Shown here one piece after another: positions 1,128 through 24,093 of a stretch of DNA of 24,318 nucleotides. The notes under the pieces are model-generated. The model was not told the DNA's origin. It saw only the letters and a list, made by a program, of their open reading frames with translations, and made no database searches. Origin of the DNA: a virus; the IMG/VR virus record IMGVR_UViG_3300038701_003241, positions 1 through 24,318 of that record, one strand, 5' to 3'. Each line of letters starts with the position of its first letter. Position 1 is the first letter of the stretch. The position numbers were made by a program, and so were the translations under genes.

Positions 1128-3929
1128 TTACTTCGCGATCCAGCCGGTGTTGCCGGTGCCGGATTCTTTGATGTAGAGAGTCGTGTCCGCGCCGCCATCG
1201 GTGCGCGTGTAGATGCTGCCGACGGGCGCGGTTACGCTGCCCTCGGGCGTGCCGGTGCCCGTCGTCCACGTGGCGGCGTTGCCGCTGGGGGCGATGGCTC
1301 CGCCGGCGTGGATCGCGCCGCCGATGCCGATGCCACCGCTGGTGACGAGGTCGCCGGTGGTGGTGTTGGTGCTGGCGGCGCCGCCGGTGAGGTTGGCTTG
1401 GCTGGCGGTGGTTAGGTCGCCAGTGGAGTCGATCGTCCAAGAGCGCGGGTCGCTGTCGGTGACCGCGGTGCCGCCGATCAGGCGGCCGGACGTGCGACCA
1501 AGTTGATCGCCCAGAGCCTGACCGGGCTGGATGTAGGGCCGGATGAGCGCGCCGACGCGCACAAGCTTGATCCCTCCGTGCGAAAAGTTGGTCGCTGCGG
1601 TGATACGCCAGCCAACGCGCATATTGGAGACCGCCGCGGTGGGGGTGAACGTGACCCATTGCTCTCCGGCGTAATCGGTGACGTTGGGATAGCCATTGTC
1701 GGCGGTAGTCAGGTTGTTTGCGGTCCCGATTTTGAATTGTGGATAGCTGCCGGAGTTGAGCACAAAGTCGGGAATGTGAAGGGCGTAAGTTACGCCTGCC
1801 TCAAGGCCCCCGAAGGGATCGTCGGTCACGGCGTGGGCGATGGTGGTGCCGTCGTCGATGCAGGAAGTGATGGCGAGGCCGGAGCTAGTGAGGGTGTCGG
1901 GAGCATGGGCTCCGCCCTCAAAGCCGTCGCCAGCACGGAGATTTACGGCGCTGCCGGGGAAGTCGGCAGACGTGGGGAGCGGGCCGCCGCTGGTCCAGCT
2001 CGCGGCCTCGGAATCGGTCCATGGCCCCAGCGCAAAGCCGACGAGGGGCATCTCGCCGGCGGGGGCTTGGTAGCCGGCGAGATAGTAACTCGTATCAAGG
2101 TCGCCATCGATCCAATTAGGAAATGCGTTGTAGTTATCGGCATCGAAACTGGCGAGGATGTTGGTGCCTTCGAACCACGTCTTCGGCGGCGTGGTGGAGT
2201 CGCCCTCGGTAAACACGAGGGCAAAGCGGACGTAGTCATAGGCGGCGTAGGCGGCAATGAAGTCGTCATACACGAGCTCCCGGCGGGCGTTGAAGGTATC
2301 GCCGACCTCTTTAATGATGAGGTCTCCATTGGTGTCGAAAAACACATGCAGAGTGTGATTGCGCTGGGCGCTTTGCAAAGAACTGCTGATGTTGATATCC
2401 GAAATTGCGGTGATGAGGGTCCGGACCGACGGGTTGGCCGATGGGATGGGAATCACGCCGTAGATGGTGATTGGCATGCCCATGATGGCGCCGAGCTCGC
2501 CCGGCTGCCATTGGATGCGTCGGTGGGTGGTGCGACCGTCGCTGAGGGCGCGGCCCCGGAAAATGGAGGAGGCAAGTTTGCTGCTGAGGTCGGCCCAAGC
2601 GGTCGTAGGTGAGGTGGTGGTTAGGAGGTCGCCGTCGGCGATGATGCCGTTGACTTCGGCGACGGTGTCGATGTCGGCGACGTTGAGGTCGCCGCCGCCG
2701 ACGACGTTGATGGTGGCCCATTCAAAATCGGTGTTGGCGGCGTTGCGGCGGAGGATTTGCAGGCCGGACCCCGAGCCGGTGCGATCGGGGTCGAGGGTGC
2801 CGGTGGTGATGTTGGCGGCGTCGATGCCGCTGCCGACTTTGTTGCCGGAGAGGCTGCCGTCGGCGAGGTCGGTGAGGTCGTCGTCGAGGGGTTGATAGGT
2901 GGCGGCGGCGGCGGTCGTGCTGAGTTTTTCGGTGTCGAGTTCGGCGAGAGCGGCTTGCACGTCGGTCGCGGCGATGTCGCCGGTCGCGGTGCTGGGGACT
3001 TCGCTGGCGACTTGGTCGGCGGCGGCGGCGTTTTCGACGTTGAGGTCCGTGCGCCATTCGTCGGGGGCGAAGTCGGTGTTGTCGCTCGGGTCTCCGGCGA
3101 AGTTGCCGACGGCTCCGGTGAGGTTGGCGTCGGTCTGCGCCTTCGAGTAGACGCTGAGGGCGGCGCGCCAATTGGCGGCGTCGAGGTCGCCTTCGCTGGC
3201 GGGGTCGTCGGCGAGGGCGCTGATGCGGCTGTTGACGGTGGCGTCGCCGTCGGTGACGTCGGTCATGGTGGCGAGGCGGATGCCGTTGTGCTCGGACCCG
3301 CTGGGGAGGAGGAGCACGGTGTCGACCTCGGGTTCTTGGGCGCGCAGGGTGATTTCGTAACCGTCGGCGGCGTGGCCGGTGCTGCCGATGATGAGCTCGG
3401 TCCCTGCTTTTACGGTGCCAGTGGTGACAAGGCCAGGCGCGGTGAGGTTCTCGTCAAAGGTCCAGCCTCCGGTGAGGGTGATATTTTCGAGGTTGAGGGT
3501 GCCGCCGGTGGGGGTGCCGGTGAGGGTGCCGGACACCGTAAAATCTGAGGAGTCGAGCATCTCAACCGTGTCGACAAATTCCCATGCACCATAGGCGTCG
3601 GGGGCCGCGTCGTCTGTAAGGTCGAGGATCAGATTGTCATTTTCATCGGCGAGCTCGGAGAGGTAGAGCGTGCTGCCGAGGCGAGTCTGCCCAAGCGTGA
3701 GGCTGGTGAGGCTGGTAAGGTCGAGGGTGCCACCGGGCGCGCCTGCGAGGGTGCCGGAGAGCGTGAGGGTGCGGGCGGCGGGGATGACGAGGTCGGTCGT
3801 GATCTCGCGGGTGCTGGGGTCTTGCATGACTGCGACCGTGTCCGGATCCGGGAAGACCTGGGCCCGTGCGAACGCGGGAAGTAGCAAGGAGCAAGTGACA
3901 AGTAACAGGTGATGGAGTCGGAATTTCAT
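1128..3929 (-). CDS. Large tail fibre / receptor-binding protein
   Basis: 933 residues from the ATG at 3929. Low-complexity, Ala/Thr/Asp/Gly-rich beta sequence with repeated 'LTLSGTL', 'GTLNLENITL' and 'ALAELDTEK' type units, typical of phage tail fibres. The 'VQAALAELDTEKLS' and 'LSGNKVGSGIDAANI' stretches resemble fibre-stalk repeats, and the C-terminus (GSIYTRTDGGADTTLYIKE) resembles the short domain seen at the ends of many fibre proteins. An in-frame upstream ATG at 4064 would overlap the preceding gene and lose the N-terminal signal-like sequence MKFRLHHLLLVTCSLLLPAF, so 3929 is preferred. Those codons coincide with a heptanucleotide repeat, so the signal peptide may be fortuitous; initiation at the Met before QDPSTREI is possible. 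Expected role: host recognition at the tail tip. Confidence 0.8.
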   Translation of the reverse strand: MKFRLHHLLLVTCSLLLPAFARAQVFPDPDTVAVMQDPSTREITTDLVIPAARTLTLSGTLAGAPGGTLDLTSLTSLTLGQTRLGSTLYLSELADENDNLILDLTDDAAPDAYGAWEFVDTVEMLDSSDFTVSGTLTGTPTGGTLNLENITLTGGWTFDENLTAPGLVTTGTVKAGTELIIGSTGHAADGYEITLRAQEPEVDTVLLLPSGSEHNGIRLATMTDVTDGDATVNSRISALADDPASEGDLDAANWRAALSVYSKAQTDANLTGAVGNFAGDPSDNTDFAPDEWRTDLNVENAAAADQVASEVPSTATGDIAATDVQAALAELDTEKLSTTAAAATYQPLDDDLTDLADGSLSGNKVGSGIDAANITTGTLDPDRTGSGSGLQILRRNAANTDFEWATINVVGGGDLNVADIDTVAEVNGIIADGDLLTTTSPTTAWADLSSKLASSIFRGRALSDGRTTHRRIQWQPGELGAIMGMPITIYGVIPIPSANPSVRTLITAISDINISSSLQSAQRNHTLHVFFDTNGDLIIKEVGDTFNARRELVYDDFIAAYAAYDYVRFALVFTEGDSTTPPKTWFEGTNILASFDADNYNAFPNWIDGDLDTSYYLAGYQAPAGEMPLVGFALGPWTDSEAASWTSGGPLPTSADFPGSAVNLRAGDGFEGGAHAPDTLTSSGLAITSCIDDGTTIAHAVTDDPFGGLEAGVTYALHIPDFVLNSGSYPQFKIGTANNLTTADNGYPNVTDYAGEQWVTFTPTAAVSNMRVGWRITAATNFSHGGIKLVRVGALIRPYIQPGQALGDQLGRTSGRLIGGTAVTDSDPRSWTIDSTGDLTTASQANLTGGAASTNTTTGDLVTSGGIGIGGAIHAGGAIAPSGNAATWTTGTGTPEGSVTAPVGSIYTRTDGGADTTLYIKESGTGNTGWIAK
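3879..3913. repeat. Heptanucleotide tandem repeat (5 units) in the 5' end of the fibre gene
   Basis: Five successive 7-mers on the plus strand: AAGTAGC, AAGGAGC, AAGTGAC, AAGTAAC, AGGTGAT. The first four share AAG..GC/AC. On the minus strand they encode the Leu/Thr/Ser core of the fibre's signal-like N-terminus. Related 7-mer runs occur at 8683-8717 and 20205-20225. Confidence 0.75.
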
Positions 3930-5672: not shown

Positions 5673-6233
5673 TCACATGGCCCACCAGCAATTGGCCAGA
5701 CCGTAGTTTCCGACTCCGAGATTCACGGCGATATTCTGGCTGATCGAGGTGATCGCCCCGCCCGTGACTTCCACATCTGCCAGATTCAGGTAGCTGGTCC
5801 ATGCCGCGGCCGCCGAGGCCTCGGTAGGCGCGGCCGTCGCGAAGATTATGTCGTAGTCGTAGCCACCGCCCGAGGTCCAATCGATCTTGGCATAGACCGC
5901 ACCGGTGCCAGAAACGGCGAGCGTAGGCGCGGGATCATCGTCCAGGGCATCGCTGCCGATCGTGGGCACGACTCCCGCTTGGCCGAGGACGTAGATCCGG
6001 CCGACAGCCACCTTGACCTTCGCAGATCCATCGGAGGCGTCGGTCACGGTGAACGGTGGCGTGGGGGTGGTAGCGGCTTTGGGTTGGGCGATCGCGCGGC
6101 CGAGGGTCCAGCCATTGGGGCCACGCGAGATCCCCGGGGCCAGCGGGGTGAGTGATCGCACGTAGCGGATGAGCTGGGCGACCGTGCCCGCTTCTACATC
6201 GTCGCCGCGTTTGGGTTCTCGAGGGAGTTGCAT
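5673..6233 (-). CDS. Tail structural protein, unknown family
   Basis: 186 residues. It begins MQLPREPKRGDDVEAGTVAQ, continues with a helix containing RYVRSLTPLAPG, and then becomes beta-rich and Gly/Ala/Thr-rich (TVTDASDGSAKVKVAVGRIY, GGYDYDIIFA), a composition typical of tail-tip or fibre attachment proteins. It starts six bases after the stop of the upstream gene and ends three bases before the next, so it is tightly coupled within the tail operon. No catalytic motif, signal or membrane segment. Function from position only. Confidence 0.65.
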   Translation of the reverse strand: MQLPREPKRGDDVEAGTVAQLIRYVRSLTPLAPGISRGPNGWTLGRAIAQPKAATTPTPPFTVTDASDGSAKVKVAVGRIYVLGQAGVVPTIGSDALDDDPAPTLAVSGTGAVYAKIDWTSGGGYDYDIIFATAAPTEASAAAAWTSYLNLADVEVTGGAITSISQNIAVNLGVGNYGLANCWWAM

Positions 6234-17059: not shown

Positions 17060-20000
17060 TTATTTGGTTACGATGCGCACGACGTCCTCGAGACTGCGGC
17101 CATCGGGCAGCTCGGTGTAGCCGTGCTTTTTGAAAATGGAGAGCACCTGGCTGCGCTCGGCCGCGCTGCCAGCGTTGATGGTGTCGACGTCCTCGAGCAG
17201 GTGGAAACCGTTTTTGAAGATCGTCTCGTTGGATCCCACCCCAGCATGTTTCTTGAAATCTTCAACCGAGACGCCGCGGGCCGTGCGTGGATCCTTCACA
17301 TATGCGTTCATCCCGGCCGGTCTCACGTCACCAAATTTGTCGCCCCCATAGCTGACCGCATCGAGCCGCGACAGGTTGCCCACCTTGAAGGTGATGCCCC
17401 GGCGCCGATTGGCCAATAGCTTCGATTGGATCCGCGTGAAGAAGTAGCTGGCCCCGCCGGTCGACAAATCCGTGCCGGGGCTCATCCCGGAGTTGATCGG
17501 CACACCGATCCGCAGACGCTCCACGGTGGGGGTCACCTGGGCGCCGCCTTCCAACCAGCTCTCAATGACCTCGGGCAGCTTGCCGGCAAGATTGTGGTGG
17601 AGGGTGTGATCGGCCAGTTGCTGCTCGATTTGCTCCCGCGGCAGGTCCCACCGGTCCCACCGCCGCCAGCCGTAGCCGAACGCATTCTCAGCCCCGTCAA
17701 AGGCAAAGGCCCGGCCGTCGGCCAGGTCGATTTTCAGCCGTTTGTTAATGAAAGTCTTCAGCTTCGTGACCTTGGCCGCGTCATCGATCTCCTCGGCCAT
17801 CACGGCCGCCCAGGCCTTGCGCTTCGCGGGCGTAAGCTGCTTGTGCATGAAGTCGAGATTGCGCGCCAGATAGGTCAGCTCACGCCGGGCCGCCGTGGCC
17901 GGGGCGATGTCCACGCCCAGGGCTTTGGCCGCATCGGCCGCGCTCTCGATCGTGGCGAGTCCACCGCGACCCGGCATGGCCACTTCGACCACCCCCCGCA
18001 GCGCAAACGGGGCCTCGTCGTCATCCGGCAGGATCAGCCGCACCTGACCGCCGCGGCCATCGGTGCCGCCCAGGGCGCTGCGCACTTCGTAGAGTCGGGT
18101 CCCTTCGTCGACCTCGGCAAAACCGCGGCGGCGTGACTTGGCGGTGTAGGCCCAGGGCGAGCGGGCCAGCGTGAGCGAGGAGTCTCCGGCTTTGATCTGC
18201 GGCGCCGGCGGTTGGTAGGCGGCCAACATCTTGGGTTGGCGTTGCTCGGCGATTGCTTTTTCGAGCTCCTCAATGATCTCGAGATAGTGGGCCTTCATCC
18301 CGGCCGGTTCTTTTGTGAGCTCCTTTTTGAGGGTGGCGAGGATCCCGGTCTTGGCCGGTTTGTAGACGCCGTCGCCCGCGTGGTAGCCCACGTGCTTGAT
18401 GACGGGCAACAGCCGACCCCAATAGTTGTCGGCCATGGGCTTGAGTGCATTCAAGCCGGTGTGGGTTTTGCGGACGGCCGCGCCGCCGGTCTCCGTGAGT
18501 TTGAACCGGGCGATGGTGTAGTCCTGCCCTCCGCGACGCTCATGATACCAGAGCACCTGCAGGTCCTCGATCATATCGCGATCGCCCAAGTGTGACTTGC
18601 CGAGGATCCGGGCATCGGCCACCTGCTGAGCAAATTCCGCGGTGAAGGTGTTCGCCGGTAGGATGCGTTGCTCGAGATCGGCGAGGCGGGCCGCGAGCAG
18701 TTCGCGCAGATCCTCCGGCGCCGCCGCGAGGATGGCGCTGCGCTGCTTGACCAGGGCTTGCACCTGATCACGCAACTCGGCCTCGGAGATCCCGCCAAAG
18801 ACGCGCGCGGCCGCGGGGTTGATTTTGGCATCGCGCAGCGAGTCGAGCTCCAACACTTCGCGACCGAAGGCCGCTTTGCGGGCCCCCTGGGCGCGGAAGC
18901 GCAGGGAACCACCGTTGTCGATCCGCCAGATCTTGCCCTTGGCGTCCACCAGCATGTTGTCCAAGTCGAGTCCCACCACATCGTAGTTGGCCAGCAACGC
19001 ATCGGTGGCCAGCTGCTGCCGGGCGCTCTGCAGGATGGCTTGGCGCTGCGCGGGCTTGGCCGCGGCTAGGGCATCCTTGAGGGTGCGACCTTCAATAAAC
19101 TCGGCCAGCTTCACCGGCGCTCCGGAGGCATCGGTGTAGAGCTTGGCGGCCGGCACGTCGGCGCCGGCGGCGCGGTAGAGTTGATCGGCGGCAAACTCTT
19201 CGCGCAGGTGCTCGGCCGAATTGCCCCGCTTGCGCACGAAGCGCCGGCCGCTGGTATCTTCGACCAGCTCGGCCCCGGTGGATCCACCCAGGCGTTGCAC
19301 GACCTTCAGCTTGTCCAGATCGGGCCAGCCATCGCCGGTCGGCGGCTCGGGTGGCAGTTGCTCCTGCAGCCACTCCCACACCGTGCCACGGCGGCCGAGT
19401 TTTTGGGACTTCGACCAATTTTCAAACCAGGCCCATGCCTCCGGGTTGTCCTGGTAGCGGGCGCGCAATTGTTTTTCGGTGAGTCGCAGATCTCCGGGGT
19501 GCCAATGAAACCCACTCCCACCCTGCTTCTCTCGGGGGCTGCGCATATCGAAGCTGCGCGGCACGCCGTCGACCTCGGCCATGAGCGTGCCGGTTTGCTC
19601 GAGCTTCTTGAGAGTATCGCCCTCCACCACCTTGCGGGCCTCGGGCACGCGCTTGGCGTCCTCCTGGCGGATATCCTCCAGATCGTCGGTCGAGATCGGC
19701 ACGACCTGGCACCGGCAGCCGAACTCCCACGGCGGATAGTGCGCTTGCCAGAAAGTCGAGTTCGCCGGCAGCACTTTGCCGTCGAGAGCGGCATGCGTGG
19801 GCCGCACGCGAGAATCCTCCGCACTTTGATACTGCCAGTAGGGAAACACATCGCGCTGCCGGTCCATCACCTCGTAGGCGGCGGCACCATAGGCTTGATA
19901 GCCGTGGATCCGCAGCAGCAGCTCGGCCCGGCGCTTGGCCCGCTCGGGTTCGAGCCAGGGGATGAGATCGGCGACGACCCCTTTTTTCACCTCATCCCAA

Positions 20001-20200
20001 TTGGCCCCCTCCGGCAGCTTGGCGATCCGCGACCTGGCCCGGGCGATCACGGTCGTGCTCTCGACGCCGGTGATCGTGATCGCCCGCGCTCGCACCTCCG
20101 GCAGCAACCGCTGAAACACCTCGGCCGACACAGCGGTCTTGCTGCGCACAAACTTGGCGGCAGTTTTGTGGGGAGCAGGTGCGTGGAGAAATTTAGGCAT
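17060..20200 (-). CDS. MuF head protein fused to kinase-like and C-terminal effector-like domains
   Basis: 1046 residues. Residues 1-170 are the Mu gpF/SPP1 gp7 minor head domain, with the hallmark QYQSAEDSRVRPTHAALDGK (124-142) and WEFGCRCQVVPI. Residues about 296-445 look like a HipA/phosphoinositide-kinase type domain: a FVRKRG lysine (K324), the helix EEFAADQLYRAAG, a hinge-like KLAEFIEGRTL, and a catalytic-loop-like DVVGLDLDN (D407 to N415) followed by RIDNGG (D428). Residues about 885-1046 hold RLRIGVP, LSTGGASYFFTRI and SNETIFKNG, faintly like the Arg, Ser-Thr and Glu motifs of ADP-ribosyltransferases. MuF proteins with polymorphic C-termini are known in temperate phages and may enter the host with DNA. 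The downstream small genes are candidate immunity genes. Confidence 0.82.
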   Translation of the reverse strand: MPKFLHAPAPHKTAAKFVRSKTAVSAEVFQRLLPEVRARAITITGVESTTVIARARSRIAKLPEGANWDEVKKGVVADLIPWLEPERAKRRAELLLRIHGYQAYGAAAYEVMDRQRDVFPYWQYQSAEDSRVRPTHAALDGKVLPANSTFWQAHYPPWEFGCRCQVVPISTDDLEDIRQEDAKRVPEARKVVEGDTLKKLEQTGTLMAEVDGVPRSFDMRSPREKQGGSGFHWHPGDLRLTEKQLRARYQDNPEAWAWFENWSKSQKLGRRGTVWEWLQEQLPPEPPTGDGWPDLDKLKVVQRLGGSTGAELVEDTSGRRFVRKRGNSAEHLREEFAADQLYRAAGADVPAAKLYTDASGAPVKLAEFIEGRTLKDALAAAKPAQRQAILQSARQQLATDALLANYDVVGLDLDNMLVDAKGKIWRIDNGGSLRFRAQGARKAAFGREVLELDSLRDAKINPAAARVFGGISEAELRDQVQALVKQRSAILAAAPEDLRELLAARLADLEQRILPANTFTAEFAQQVADARILGKSHLGDRDMIEDLQVLWYHERRGGQDYTIARFKLTETGGAAVRKTHTGLNALKPMADNYWGRLLPVIKHVGYHAGDGVYKPAKTGILATLKKELTKEPAGMKAHYLEIIEELEKAIAEQRQPKMLAAYQPPAPQIKAGDSSLTLARSPWAYTAKSRRRGFAEVDEGTRLYEVRSALGGTDGRGGQVRLILPDDDEAPFALRGVVEVAMPGRGGLATIESAADAAKALGVDIAPATAARRELTYLARNLDFMHKQLTPAKRKAWAAVMAEEIDDAAKVTKLKTFINKRLKIDLADGRAFAFDGAENAFGYGWRRWDRWDLPREQIEQQLADHTLHHNLAGKLPEVIESWLEGGAQVTPTVERLRIGVPINSGMSPGTDLSTGGASYFFTRIQSKLLANRRRGITFKVGNLSRLDAVSYGGDKFGDVRPAGMNAYVKDPRTARGVSVEDFKKHAGVGSNETIFKNGFHLLEDVDTINAGSAAERSQVLSIFKKHGYTELPDGRSLEDVVRIVTK

Positions 20201-20204
20201 CGGT

Positions 20205-20225
20205 GAAGTAGCGGGTAGTGAGTAG
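20205..20225. repeat. Heptanucleotide tandem repeat upstream of the MuF gene
   Basis: Three 7-mers on the plus strand, GAAGTAG, CGGGTAG and TGAGTAG, share the ending GTAG and end within a few bases of the MuF start codon. They resemble the 7-mer runs at 3879-3913 and 8683-8717. Confidence 0.55.
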
Positions 20226-20343
20226 GTCAGGAAACTAGAAGCCCCCGCGAAGCCCCGCGAATGGACAAGAAGGCCGGTATCCCGGAAAACGCGTGTCTTG
20301 TGGCGTGGAACGCAGAGGCATGGCTTAAAATCGATTTATGGGG

Positions 20344-20559
20344 TCACAGCGTCGCCACGACGCGCTTCATGCTAACGCGGTCGAGAGACATCCCCATAAA
20401 AGAAGCACTGGCACCCTCGAATCGGTGGGGGCACCACCATTCACCGATCTTCATGGCGTTCTCGAGGGAGTCATGGGCTTCGTCCTCGAACTTGCTGGGG
20501 ACCTCGATGCGCACGAGCTCGCCGTTGTCCAAGACCAGATCGATGTAGGTGGTTTTCAT
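20344..20559 (-). CDS. Small hypothetical protein (71 residues)
   Basis: 71 residues: MKTTYIDLVLDNGELVRIEV, a helix with FEDEAHDSLENAMKIGEW, then WCPHRFEGASASFMGMSLDR. The balanced amino-acid composition with alternating strand and helix suggests a real gene rather than a chance frame. It begins directly after a 9-bp triple repeat and lacks a clear ribosome-binding site. It lies between a small unknown gene and MuF. Function unknown. Confidence 0.6.
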   Translation of the reverse strand: MKTTYIDLVLDNGELVRIEVPSKFEDEAHDSLENAMKIGEWWCPHRFEGASASFMGMSLDRVSMKRVVATL

Positions 20560-20586
20560 TTTCGTGTCTTTCGTGTGTTTCGTGGT
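20560..20586. repeat. Triple 9-bp repeat abutting a start codon
   Basis: Read on the minus strand it is ACCACGAAA, CACACGAAA, GACACGAAA followed immediately by ATG of the 71-residue gene. The CACGAAA core recurs exactly every nine bases. Similar runs precede small genes in several GC-rich environmental bacteria (from memory), so it may be a mobile or regulatory repeat. Confidence 0.7.
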
Positions 20587-20597
20587 TAAAAAAGCGC

Positions 20598-21032
20598 TCA
20601 GTATGAAGCCGTGGTCGCTTCGCGCAGGCGTTCGCGGTTGGTGAGTTTTTGACCGGGTTCCTTTTGATCCCAGAACTCCGGATCAGTCGCCTTGGCGTGG
20701 TGTTGCAGGTAGCTCTGGTAGTTAAACTCGAACACGCCGGGAATCGTCAGCTGGCCTTTCACAAAGCCTGCCCAGATGAGCCGCTTCATCGATTGGCGGG
20801 AGATGCCAATGCCCAGCTTCTGCAGCACCTCGGTTTTAACCGGGAACCACCGCGGCGACACGCGACCGATCAAGCGGAACGTGCCGTCGCCCGCGGGCAC
20901 GACATCGGCCACGACGACCTCGGGCAGGATCGCATCGGGGAGCGATACGATACGTTGCCCCGGCAACACCTCGACCACCGCGCAAGACTTGGCCCCTACG
21001 ACGGGCAGGATCTGTGGAACGGGTTTTCCCAT
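20598..21032 (-). CDS. Small phage protein, possibly DNA-binding
   Basis: 144 residues from the ATG at 21032 (MGKPVPQILPVVGAKSCAVV), chosen because AGGAGG lies ten bases upstream; the ATG at 21041 would have a one-base spacer. A beta N-terminal half (VEVLPGQRIVSLPDAILPEV) is followed by a helical segment with KTEVLQKLGIGISRQSMKRL, which could be an excisionase-like or helix-turn-helix element, and a basic C-terminus NRERLREATTASY. It begins one base after the stop of the winged-helix gene, so the two are coupled. A regulator is the inference from context. Confidence 0.6.
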   Translation of the reverse strand: MGKPVPQILPVVGAKSCAVVEVLPGQRIVSLPDAILPEVVVADVVPAGDGTFRLIGRVSPRWFPVKTEVLQKLGIGISRQSMKRLIWAGFVKGQLTIPGVFEFNYQSYLQHHAKATDPEFWDQKEPGQKLTNRERLREATTASY

Positions 21033-21033
21033 G

Positions 21034-21411
21034 TCAGGCATACCTCCTCTGCTGACTGGGGCGGTCGCTTGAATGCCGCGGCACGTTGAGCCCCGCTTCG
21101 AAAAGCGTGCTCTGCACGCCGACGGTCGCCTCGCGTTTTTTGGTCTGAAAGAAAGCCTCCGCTTCATGCGCGGCCGCGGCCCGGTAGATGCCGGCATGGC
21201 GCACCCCGCCCAGGTGAATCACAAAACCCATCTGCAGCAGCTCGGTCGTGCGCGGCCGCAGCGTGAGGATGGAGATCCCGGAGCGCTCGGCGAGCTGCTC
21301 GGTCGTGCACGGCCCATGCTCCTGCCAGGCAACCAGCACTTCCTCGCGCTTCCCATCGATGGTCTTCTGCACCTGGGCAAACGTAGCATTGCGATAGTCG
21401 ATCGGTTTCAT
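21034..21411 (-). CDS. Winged-helix DNA-binding protein
   Basis: 125 residues with ATG at 21411 preceded by GGAGG at seven bases, a strong site that rules out the upstream in-frame start at 21456. Residues about 30-78 are a winged helix: PCTTEQLAERSGISILTLRP, then RTTELLQMGFVIHLGG and RHAGIYRAAAAH as the wing. The N-terminal helix (TFAQVQKTIDGKREEVLVAW) and the C-terminal tail (SLFEAG, SSDRPSQQRRYA) are outside the fold. This architecture fits a phage transcription factor that senses or sets the early-to-late switch. It is divergent from the plus-strand putAbiC-like gene, with about 60 bases between the starts. Confidence 0.7.
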   Translation of the reverse strand: MKPIDYRNATFAQVQKTIDGKREEVLVAWQEHGPCTTEQLAERSGISILTLRPRTTELLQMGFVIHLGGVRHAGIYRAAAAHEAEAFFQTKKREATVGVQSTLFEAGLNVPRHSSDRPSQQRRYA

Positions 21412-21470
21412 GAGATAACCTCCGATTTTGGGTGCAGAACAACCCGTTTGAGCCAAATGCTCAGCGTGTC

Positions 21471-22061
21471 ATGAAGTTCTTTCCCACACTCCCATTCCGA
21501 CCGGGCGAAATTCTTCGATTCGGATTCTGGTTCGTTCTCTTGATGGCCCTGTTTTACGCGGCGGCAATCCGTTGGATTTTCGAAACCCCTCCCGAACGAG
21601 CCGGACAGTTTGGAGATATGTTTGGAGCCCTGAATGCGATATTCGCCGGCCTCGCTTTCGTGGGATTGCTGGCGACCATAGCCTACCAACACCAAGAAAT
21701 TAAAGACGCTCGAACGGACGCCAAGCAGCTCAAGAAATCCGTGGAGAAAATGACCTTCGCCATGATCAAACAAGTTCAAGCGGTGAATAGCCAACGGCAC
21801 TCTCTGGATGCGCAGAACAATCTTCTCGACGAGCAGAATGCTACCACTCGGGAGCAAAATGCCAATGCAAAGCGGGCAGAGTATCTCAATGCCTTGATCG
21901 CTCGCATCGAAAATTACGACCGGCAAATCGCCCAGATCAGTCGAAATCAGCCCCCACCTCGTGATCTGTTTTTGGAACAAGAAAACTTGATTGCGGAGCT
22001 CGATGAGATCTTGGAGTTCACCCGTGATCGAGAACAGGGTAGTTTCGGTATGTTGGATTAA
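21471..22061 (+). CDS. Putative abortive-infection membrane protein (putAbiC-like)
   Basis: 196 residues from ATG 21471; an upstream in-frame GTG at 21432 adds 13 residues, and neither has a clear ribosome-binding site. A 5-bp inverted repeat TGAGC/GCTCA (21449-21463) lies just before the ATG. Two membrane helices (about 15-36 and 53-72) enclose GQFGDMFGALNAIFAGLAF, the signature I associate with the putative phage abortive infection family putAbiC (PF16872). A long charged coiled coil follows (EIKDARTDAKQLKKSVEKMT, NNLLDEQNATTREQNANAKR). It is A/T-rich and inserted between two minus-strand phage genes; its stop is two bases from the stop of the ParB-like gene. Defence function is inferred from the family name. 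Confidence 0.75.
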   Translation: MKFFPTLPFRPGEILRFGFWFVLLMALFYAAAIRWIFETPPERAGQFGDMFGALNAIFAGLAFVGLLATIAYQHQEIKDARTDAKQLKKSVEKMTFAMIKQVQAVNSQRHSLDAQNNLLDEQNATTREQNANAKRAEYLNALIARIENYDRQIAQISRNQPPPRDLFLEQENLIAELDEILEFTRDREQGSFGMLD

Positions 22062-22063
22062 CT

Positions 22064-23059
22064 TCATCGGCTCGGCAATTCGAAGATTTCGACGATGGGC
22101 GCTACGCGCTCGGCTTGGAGTTCGCGGAAGTGCTCCACGCCCTCGAGTGACATTTCCAATTTGACCGGCCGGGCCCCGCGTTGCTGCAGCAGGATCGTTT
22201 GCAGGCTCAGTTCGGCCACCCCTCGATCGGTCCCGCGGGAGAGCAGCTTGGCATCGTCGGACATCAAAAAGGTCCGGAGGAGTCCGATGGGCGATGCCTC
22301 ATCGATGTCCTCTCCCGTCGTGAGCTCGTCCCACATCTTGGCGATCGGCGTGACCTCTTGGTCGTAGCCCGTTTCTGTCCCCAGGGCAAAGGCAAAGGCC
22401 GCCATCACGCCGGCGCTGCGCAGGCCCACCGTTTTCGATCGATAGCGGATGATGTAGTTGATCGGGCTTTCAAACGCGCGGTAGATCTCGAGGGTCTGCC
22501 CCACACTCAACCGGCGCGTGCGTTTGCCGTAGCACAACCCGGCCAGGTTGGAACACATCGAGGAGATGATGCCGCCGTTTTTGAAACCGTGCTGGATCTT
22601 CAGCTGGTCGGCCACCGAGCGCGTGCGGCCGCGGTCGACGGCATCCATCGTGGTCATCTCTTTTTGCGGGATCTCGCTGGGCAATCCAAACGTGACCATC
22701 ATGCGGATCGTCAACCCACTCATCACGATCGCGAGCAGCCGGTGCTGGCCATCGATCAACTCGTCACGATCGTTGAACGCGATCCCCTGGTGGGTGGGCA
22801 CCCACACGCCGTTGATCATGTCGCGGGCGTAGGCCTGCACGACGTCTTCCTTGACCGGGCGGTTGCGGAAATTGTTTTCGAGCCACTTGGTGGCGAGCGC
22901 GGGATCCACGTCGAACCACTGCGAGTTGAGCCCCTCGCCAGCGGCCACGGTCTGGCCGTTCTTTTCGATCGCGATGGGCTCGGTGTGGCTGCCTCCGGAG
23001 ACGAGCCCGGCGGCGCGGGCGCGTTGCACCATGCGTTTGATTTCGTCGGCATCAATCAT
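22064..23059 (-). CDS. ParB/sulfiredoxin-fold phage protein
   Basis: 331 residues. The N-terminal third contains the ParB-like signature DELIDGQHRLLAIV (about 99-112), preceded by VVQAYARDMINGVWVPTHQG and followed by the family-typical MDAVDRGRTRSVADQL (138-153). The rest is helical, without a recognisable helix-turn-helix. Proteins of this type are common in phages. Some ParB-fold proteins are CTPases or nucleases, but no role can be read here. Its ATG overlaps the stop of the HNH gene by four bases (ATGA), so the two are coupled. It could act in replication, packaging or transcription control. Confidence 0.75.
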   Translation of the reverse strand: MIDADEIKRMVQRARAAGLVSGGSHTEPIAIEKNGQTVAAGEGLNSQWFDVDPALATKWLENNFRNRPVKEDVVQAYARDMINGVWVPTHQGIAFNDRDELIDGQHRLLAIVMSGLTIRMMVTFGLPSEIPQKEMTTMDAVDRGRTRSVADQLKIQHGFKNGGIISSMCSNLAGLCYGKRTRRLSVGQTLEIYRAFESPINYIIRYRSKTVGLRSAGVMAAFAFALGTETGYDQEVTPIAKMWDELTTGEDIDEASPIGLLRTFLMSDDAKLLSRGTDRGVAELSLQTILLQQRGARPVKLEMSLEGVEHFRELQAERVAPIVEIFELPSR

Positions 23060-24093
23060 GCGGCACTCCTTTTGTGGGCCCCGCGTAGTTTGTGGATACT
23101 GGGTGTGGTTTCATGGCCATGGGTTTCGGTCTGTTGGCTGCGCTTCAGCAGCAGCGCCGTGAGGTCTCGTGATTTGGCGGCGAGGCCGGCCGCGTGGTTT
23201 TCGCGACACACGTCGTTGCGCGTCGCGAGGGTGAGATTGTGAGGATCCAAGTTATTCGGGTTCCCGTCCGCATGGCGGACGACGTAGCCCTCCGGGATCG
23301 GGCGACCGTGGGCTTCCTCCCAGATCACGTGATGCAGGCAAGGACGGCCTTCCGCTGGATTCCATCCTCCCGATCGCATGTAGCCCGCCTTGCGAGTCCA
23401 AAACCAAAGCGTGTCTTTCCAGATCACTCCCTGGCTCACGACGTTCAATTTCTCGCCCGCGTCGCGGGAGCTCTTGCCGGCATTTATCCGGTCGATGATC
23501 TTGCGCGCCTCCGGCGTGGCGTAGTCGAACGGGATCACGTTGGCGGAGAACGGCAGTTCCGGCCGCGCTTTGTCATCGCAAATGAGTTCACGCATGCGAG
23601 CGATGAACTTGCCGCGGCGAGCAAACGACCACTTGCGCCAGTGGATCTTGAGCTCAACCGGCACGCGGATCCTCGGCTGGGCGCGGATCAAATCGTCGAT
23701 CTCGGCAGGCGTGTAGATCCGGAGCGGAGCGATTTGACCATTGGGCAAACGCTTGGGATCTCCCGTCGCCTTGCGCACCTTGAGCCCGCGGCTCTTAAAA
23801 AGGTCTCCCACAGACTTGTGGCTTCGATCGTATTTTTGGCCCACTTGGCCCAACGACATGCCGGCGCAATAATCCGCATACATGGCTTGGATTCGCTCCG
23901 CTGGCACCCGCCTGTTACCGGCGCCCACCTTGGGCGTGGCCCGGTGCCGGGCGATGCGCAGCGCACGATCCACCAAATCCATCGATTGCTCGACCTGACC
24001 AAAGCGCTGCCCTGCTAGGGCCGTCTCGGCCTTGGTCAATTCCCGGCGCACGATCGCGACCGCTTGGGCATAGGTGCAGGTTCTCAAATCCAT
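23056..24093 (-). CDS. HNH endonuclease with N-terminal helix-turn-helix
   Basis: 345 residues from ATG 24093, chosen because AAGGA lies ten bases upstream; the GTG at 24126 has none and would overlap the upstream gene. Residues about 75-105 form a helix-turn-helix (DYCAGMSLGQVGQKYDRSHK, then SVGDLFKSRG). The C-terminal part is a classical HNH_3 domain: CLHHVIWEEAHG (H254/H255), RHADGNPNNLDPHNLTLAT (about 273-291) and RNDVCRENHAAG. HNH nucleases near phage packaging genes often help terminase cut DNA, while free-standing ones act as homing nucleases. Here it begins a tight string with the ParB-like gene, so a phage function is favoured. Confidence 0.85.
   Translation of the reverse strand: MDLRTCTYAQAVAIVRRELTKAETALAGQRFGQVEQSMDLVDRALRIARHRATPKVGAGNRRVPAERIQAMYADYCAGMSLGQVGQKYDRSHKSVGDLFKSRGLKVRKATGDPKRLPNGQIAPLRIYTPAEIDDLIRAQPRIRVPVELKIHWRKWSFARRGKFIARMRELICDDKARPELPFSANVIPFDYATPEARKIIDRINAGKSSRDAGEKLNVVSQGVIWKDTLWFWTRKAGYMRSGGWNPAEGRPCLHHVIWEEAHGRPIPEGYVVRHADGNPNNLDPHNLTLATRNDVCRENHAAGLAAKSRDLTALLLKRSQQTETHGHETTPSIHKLRGAHKRSAA

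Follow-up and report, generated by a model that had tools for sequence, protein, structure and literature searches.

What does a small gene do for a phage when it lies against the direction of the phage genes on either side of it? The window analysed here, the whole of a 24,318-base virus record, holds such an open reading frame, hereafter called the cargo gene. A first-pass annotation had read it as a putAbiC-like abortive-infection gene, possibly controlled by a divergent winged-helix regulator. Two questions follow: to which family the product belongs, and what role it may have.

The cargo gene and its surroundings

Recognisable phage genes on the contig encode a head protein of the MuF type, a head maturation protease and a head-tail adaptor; a tape-measure match was obtained as well. 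The named relatives of the protease, among 10 records in total, include SuMu and FP_Mushu, which, partly from their annotation, we take to be Mu-like; a search for the Mu transposase family PF09299 over 11 records gave zero matches, but its control also gave none. The whole contig had no megablast match to phage records, Rfam gave none over positions 20000-23500, and no lysogeny gene was identified within the 24-kb fragment. The MuF-type protein (1046 aa, window positions 17060-20200) has its Phage_Mu_F domain confined to residues 88-166; the long remainder, assigned to no family, is conserved in another record (L012) with 44% identity.

The cargo ORF is a real gene. Both of its neighbours are read from the minus strand, and it is antiparallel to the phage genes on either side (Table 1). 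An alternative GTG start at 21432 would lengthen the product to 209 aa. Its G+C content is 50.6%, versus 61.8% for the contig, a value as low being reached by just 4.8% of the contig's 591-bp sliding windows, and its GC3 is 57.4%, versus 60-83% in 15 other ORFs. The membrane module that it encodes (see below) was present in one of the 11 other records that have the winged-helix gene, namely L018, and the cargo is therefore accessory. It shows the traits of a moron: odd composition, an orientation of its own and absence from most relatives. A scan of the plus strand for sigma-70-type promoters, the one promoter type covered, found none between 21000 and 22500, signals in the promoter and terminator scan were close to shuffle level, and no clear Shine-Dalgarno sequence was seen by eye upstream of 21471.

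Table 1. Positions in the window of the cargo gene, its neighbours and the predicted parts of its product.
Feature	Positions	Strand	Description
Winged-helix gene, phrog_1123 (function unknown)	21034..21411	-	divergent neighbour
5-bp inverted repeat, TGAGC-5-GCTCA	21449..21463		at chance level
Cargo gene	21471..22061	+	196 aa, ATG start
First membrane helix, residues 11-38	21501..21584	+	AlphaFold2 model, hydropathy
GQFGDMFG motif into second membrane helix, residues 45-73	21603..21689	+	alignment, AlphaFold2, hydropathy
Long helical stalk, probably a cytoplasmic coiled coil, residues 74-157	21690..21941	+	AlphaFold2; side inferred from charges
Short C-terminal helix, residues 164-187	21960..22031	+	AlphaFold2; PF16872 domain absent there
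phrog_5931 gene, weak ParB-like match	22064..23059	-	convergent neighbour, phage gene

Relationship of the protein to putAbiC

A profile search against PF16872 (putAbiC), the family named in the first-pass annotation, was negative: among Pfam matches up to E=1 the window protein had no row for this family (cut-off 22 bits), and a six-frame search of the contig, with stops read through, returned 0 of 1 records up to E=10. The best family was phrog_8999, a PHROG of unknown function, with E=4e-9: residues 34-130 in the 209-aa version align with positions 18-123 of the 270-position profile, whose second half has no counterpart. A whole-genome match in G001 reached E=8.5e-14. The similarity of the window protein to its relatives is above chance.

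Three proteins, L007 from a Vibrio plasmid, L004 from a Vibrio phage and L009 from a Klebsiella plasmid, cover most of the phrog_8999 profile and carry PF16872 at the C-terminal end, at residues 182-250, 189-261 and 235-319 respectively; the first bears the annotation 'putative phage abortive infection protein'. The part shared with the window protein is therefore their N-terminal membrane module, two helices with a GDxFG motif followed by a coil, which lies outside the Pfam definition, whereas the PF16872 domain itself is missing from the window protein. Since phrog_8999 is matched over its N-terminal half and PF16872 is absent, the window protein would represent the anchor half, that is, two membrane helices, a G-D-x-x-G motif and a coiled coil, minus the presumed effector half. 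The putAbiC-like label is thus borne out for the module, whose relatives include PF16872 carriers and an annotated abortive-infection protein, but not for the domain. The GDxFG module is common to annotated abortive-infection proteins and has no above-cut-off Pfam match of its own here. As for the signature said to lie between two membrane helices, GDMFGALNAIFAGLAF is present in the ORF and the two helices exist, but the signature opens and forms the second helix.

Three further relatives, L005, L008 and an Akkermansia phage protein (L003), had no Pfam row for PF16872. The last of these, a 303-aa module protein of phage Moulinsart (L003:10394-11305), is encoded near genes annotated as a toxin and a transcriptional repressor. 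A literature search on putAbiC, PF16872, AbiC-like and DUF6082 found no study of the family; the phrase 'phage abortive infection protein' occurs in two papers.

The module, its predicted fold and its short forms

Viral contigs were scanned with a seven-sequence alignment as query, which gave 155 pattern matches, 42 loci and 45 module ORFs; having been selected by motif, the set is no unbiased census. An alignment of 48 proteins comprises the window protein, L018, L005, L006 and 44 of the 45 viral module ORFs, L092, which duplicates L091, being omitted. With a limit of E=0.01, PF16872 was found in 27 of the 48, DUF6082 (PF19560) in 31, and the PADLOC profiles for AbiP and AbiC in 21 and six. 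The window protein scored 20.3-20.5 bits with DUF6082, below the curated cut-off of 26.7, in a match that lies over its second membrane helix and covers just about 40 of 163 positions.

Among the nearest tested proteins are AbiP and AbiC, known from Lactococcus. The window protein had no row up to E=10 for either PADLOC profile (PDLC02351 for AbiP, PDLC02343 for AbiC), in contrast to the proteins of the same alignment counted above. In the full-length relative L059 the AbiP match spans residues 87-239 and the AbiC match residues 156-227, mostly the part that the window protein lacks, so that defence by the same route is uncertain. Matches of the window protein to the PADLOC profiles BrxC, LeoBC, DruC and LmuB were taken as coiled-coil coincidences.

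Hydropathy gave two hydrophobic helices, with 19-residue windows beginning at residues 13-21 and 49-54, and G48, D49, G52 and Q73 are invariant across the 48 aligned proteins. The AlphaFold2 model of the window protein (mean pLDDT 86.6, pTM 0.46) has helices at residues 11-38, 41-157 (one continuous helix) and 164-187, which agrees with a protein made of the anchor half only. L059 (mean pLDDT 89.0, pTM 0.71) starts in a similar way, with helices at 9-30 and 38-118, after which come the two short strands and many helices that make up its C-terminal region. The stretch following the second helix is richer in lysine and arginine than the loop is in 45 of the 48 module proteins. By the positive-inside rule the side rich in these residues is the cytoplasmic one, so that both the N and the C terminus would be cytoplasmic. 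Fold searches at E up to 0.001 gave zero matches for the window model in BFVD and for the L059 model in PDB and BFVD; a sequence search of solved structures gave rows at chance level only.

A local stand-in profile for PF16872, lenient because it was trained partly on the same proteins, left nine of the 48 without support (E above 1 or no match): the window protein, L018, L066, L075, L087, both genes of L090, L093 and the split first half of L006. Of these, L075, L087, L090 and L093 have other, longer tails. Short forms are L042 (158 aa), from the bacterial whole-genome loci, and L066 (176 aa), from another phage contig, where it is antiparallel to its neighbours, a 1303-aa ORF called tape-measure-like from reading the sequence and not from a family search, and another minus-strand ORF, overlapped by 4 bp. 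L066 is the clearest parallel to the arrangement in the window. Homology among the C-terminal tails of the short forms was not detected (p from 0.096 to 0.66 in six pairs), and no close protein relative was confirmed in viral contigs. That the module is found by itself, and elsewhere joined to different C-terminal tails, suggests an anchor of modular type whose outputs can be exchanged.

With one module gene counted per locus (L092 omitted) and neighbours assigned by a crude longest-ORF rule, the module gene was antiparallel to both neighbours in 9 of 43 cases, co-directional with both in 19 and mixed in 15. The window protein matched 8 of 297 whole genomes in the phylum of G001 and 11 of 296 in that of G002, seed genomes included. 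These matches correspond to 20 loci, three of which (L030, L045 and L046) lacked a module match when searched later with a profile and were probably picked up through the coil.

Tandem module genes, possibly paired subunits, occur in three of the 42 viral loci (L054:4001-5620, L089:3616-5572 and L090:3956-5964). In a Cytophagales MAG (L006:7953-8842) a module ORF overlaps one with PF16872 that is read in another frame: a frameshift or a split gene. In Falsirhodobacter (L010:2803-3678) the annotation places a putative phage abortive infection protein at 3274-3678, within a frame that is open from 2803 and takes in the membrane module; the annotated start is probably too late.

Possible roles of the cargo gene

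The explanation that we rank first, with a probability of roughly 0.45, is that the cargo is an accessory prophage gene, a moron, whose membrane-protein product belongs to the AbiC/AbiP (putAbiC) superfamily, is cut down to its anchor half and probably acts at the membrane in defence against superinfection. The analysis establishes that the gene exists, its orientation and composition, the anchor-half homology, the missing domain and the predicted fold, whereas topology, oligomerisation, expression in the lysogen and any defence role are inferred. In this product the conserved GDxFG turn would connect two membrane helices, the N and C termini would both face the cytoplasm, and the coiled-coil stalk would end without a PF16872 domain. 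Its expression in the lysogen would not depend on the phage operon around it, and it may oligomerise through the membrane pair and the stalk. Upon infection by a second phage it could disturb the membrane, or phage replication attached to it, with abortive infection or superinfection exclusion as the outcome. The low G+C content together with the antiparallel insertion was counted in favour of a moron, as was the second short form, L066, with the same antiparallel placement.

A partial analogy is offered by the other of the nearest tested proteins, PdpSau of Staphylococcus aureus prophages, a membrane protein that is reported to block phage: Kayvirus DNA hardly replicates in its presence, the membrane potential and permeability of infected cells are altered, and its authors liken it structurally to AbiP (PMC10127798). 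At the level of description, a putative prophage origin and a predicted membrane anchor are what the window protein has in common with it. PdpSau differs in that it is reported to have 278 aa, a single membrane helix and a cytoplasmic domain (PMC10127798). That single helix counts against a membrane-acting defence moron, as do the missing AbiP/AbiC match, sigma-70 site, clear Shine-Dalgarno sequence and lysogeny gene, and the coil tails of the short forms, whose homology is not demonstrable (best p about 0.1).

Ranked second, and unlikely, is gene decay, in which a putAbiC gene once of full length would have lost its 3' half and would no longer function. The cargo stop codon falls 2 bp from the end of the phrog_5931 gene, as though the 3' portion were trimmed away there, and most relatives sampled have a longer C-terminus than the window protein. 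Decay is opposed by the six frames of the contig, which contain no PF16872 remnant even with stops read through, by a frame that stays open across 196 codons, and by L066, which repeats the short plan at an unrelated place.

The conserved anchor half and the missing PF16872 half would also suit a decoy, third in our ranking and less probable still. An anchor without effector would join oligomers of putative host AbiC/AbiP-type partners in a dominant-negative manner and prevent their activation, which would let the phage escape host defence. Full-length versions are known from plasmids and bacterial genomes, and the short form recurs in at least one other phage contig (L066), but it is also found in a bacterial genome (L042), where such a role is less obvious. 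The broader proposal, that phages carry stand-alone AbiC/AbiP anchor modules as antiparallel morons which disarm full-length host proteins as dominant-negative decoys, is more doubtful again.

That the divergent winged-helix protein represses or activates a defence cargo, and so ties it to lysogeny, as the first-pass annotation had suggested, is improbable. The shared gap of about 60 bases between the divergent genes, a point in favour of the idea, is real and measures 59 bp (21412-21470); the winged-helix start at 21411 is backed by the start MKPIDYRN in L012-L015 and L017. The inverted repeat near the cargo start exists as well, but at a frequency expected by chance: at least one 5-bp repeat with a spacer of up to 12 occurs in 36.8% of 2000 shuffles of the gap, and one with a spacer of up to 40 in 73% of the contig's 59-bp windows. 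The exact pattern with a spacer of 3-7 occurs once in the contig versus 0.17 expected, and at least once in 15 of 100 shuffles. Upstream regions were examined for nine of the 11 winged-helix loci, whereas L021 and L022, with matches that start only at residue 34, were omitted for that reason. In none of the nine does a repeat of this form occur within 80 bp upstream of the start; L015 has one about 260 bp upstream. The winged-helix start overlaps an upstream same-strand ORF by 4 bp in L015, L016 and L017, and L012 and L014 likewise have an upstream ORF on the same strand, so the winged-helix gene looks like a member of an operon. By the crude rule the upstream ORF is on the opposite strand in L013, L018, L019 and L020, although L018 offers an equally good candidate on the same strand, an ORF whose end at 5987 is 1 bp from the winged-helix start.

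The winged-helix protein had zero matches in phage records. Its L018 homologue does have a module gene about 350 bp downstream, which speaks for a connection, but that gene lies on the same strand behind an excisionase-like gene and is not divergent, and the module is missing from the other 10 of the 11 records. The L066 short form diverges from the tape-measure-like gene and not from a regulator. Judged by these sequence comparisons, control of the cargo by the winged-helix gene is unsupported. The row in L018:5989-8294 consists of the winged-helix homologue, an excisionase-like HTH gene, the module gene without PF16872 and a D12-type adenine methyltransferase gene.

A lysis or envelope role as an inner-membrane, spanin-like component is very improbable, and the predicted topology differs from that of an Rz-like spanin, with one N-terminal membrane helix and a periplasmic coil: phrog_739, phrog_2466 and phrog_214 (Rz-like spanin) match with E=9e-4 to 9e-3, mainly over the coil, but phrog_8999 scores far better, the cargo is antiparallel to the adjoining phage genes, and the two hydrophobic helices with their charge bias would put the coil in the cytoplasm.
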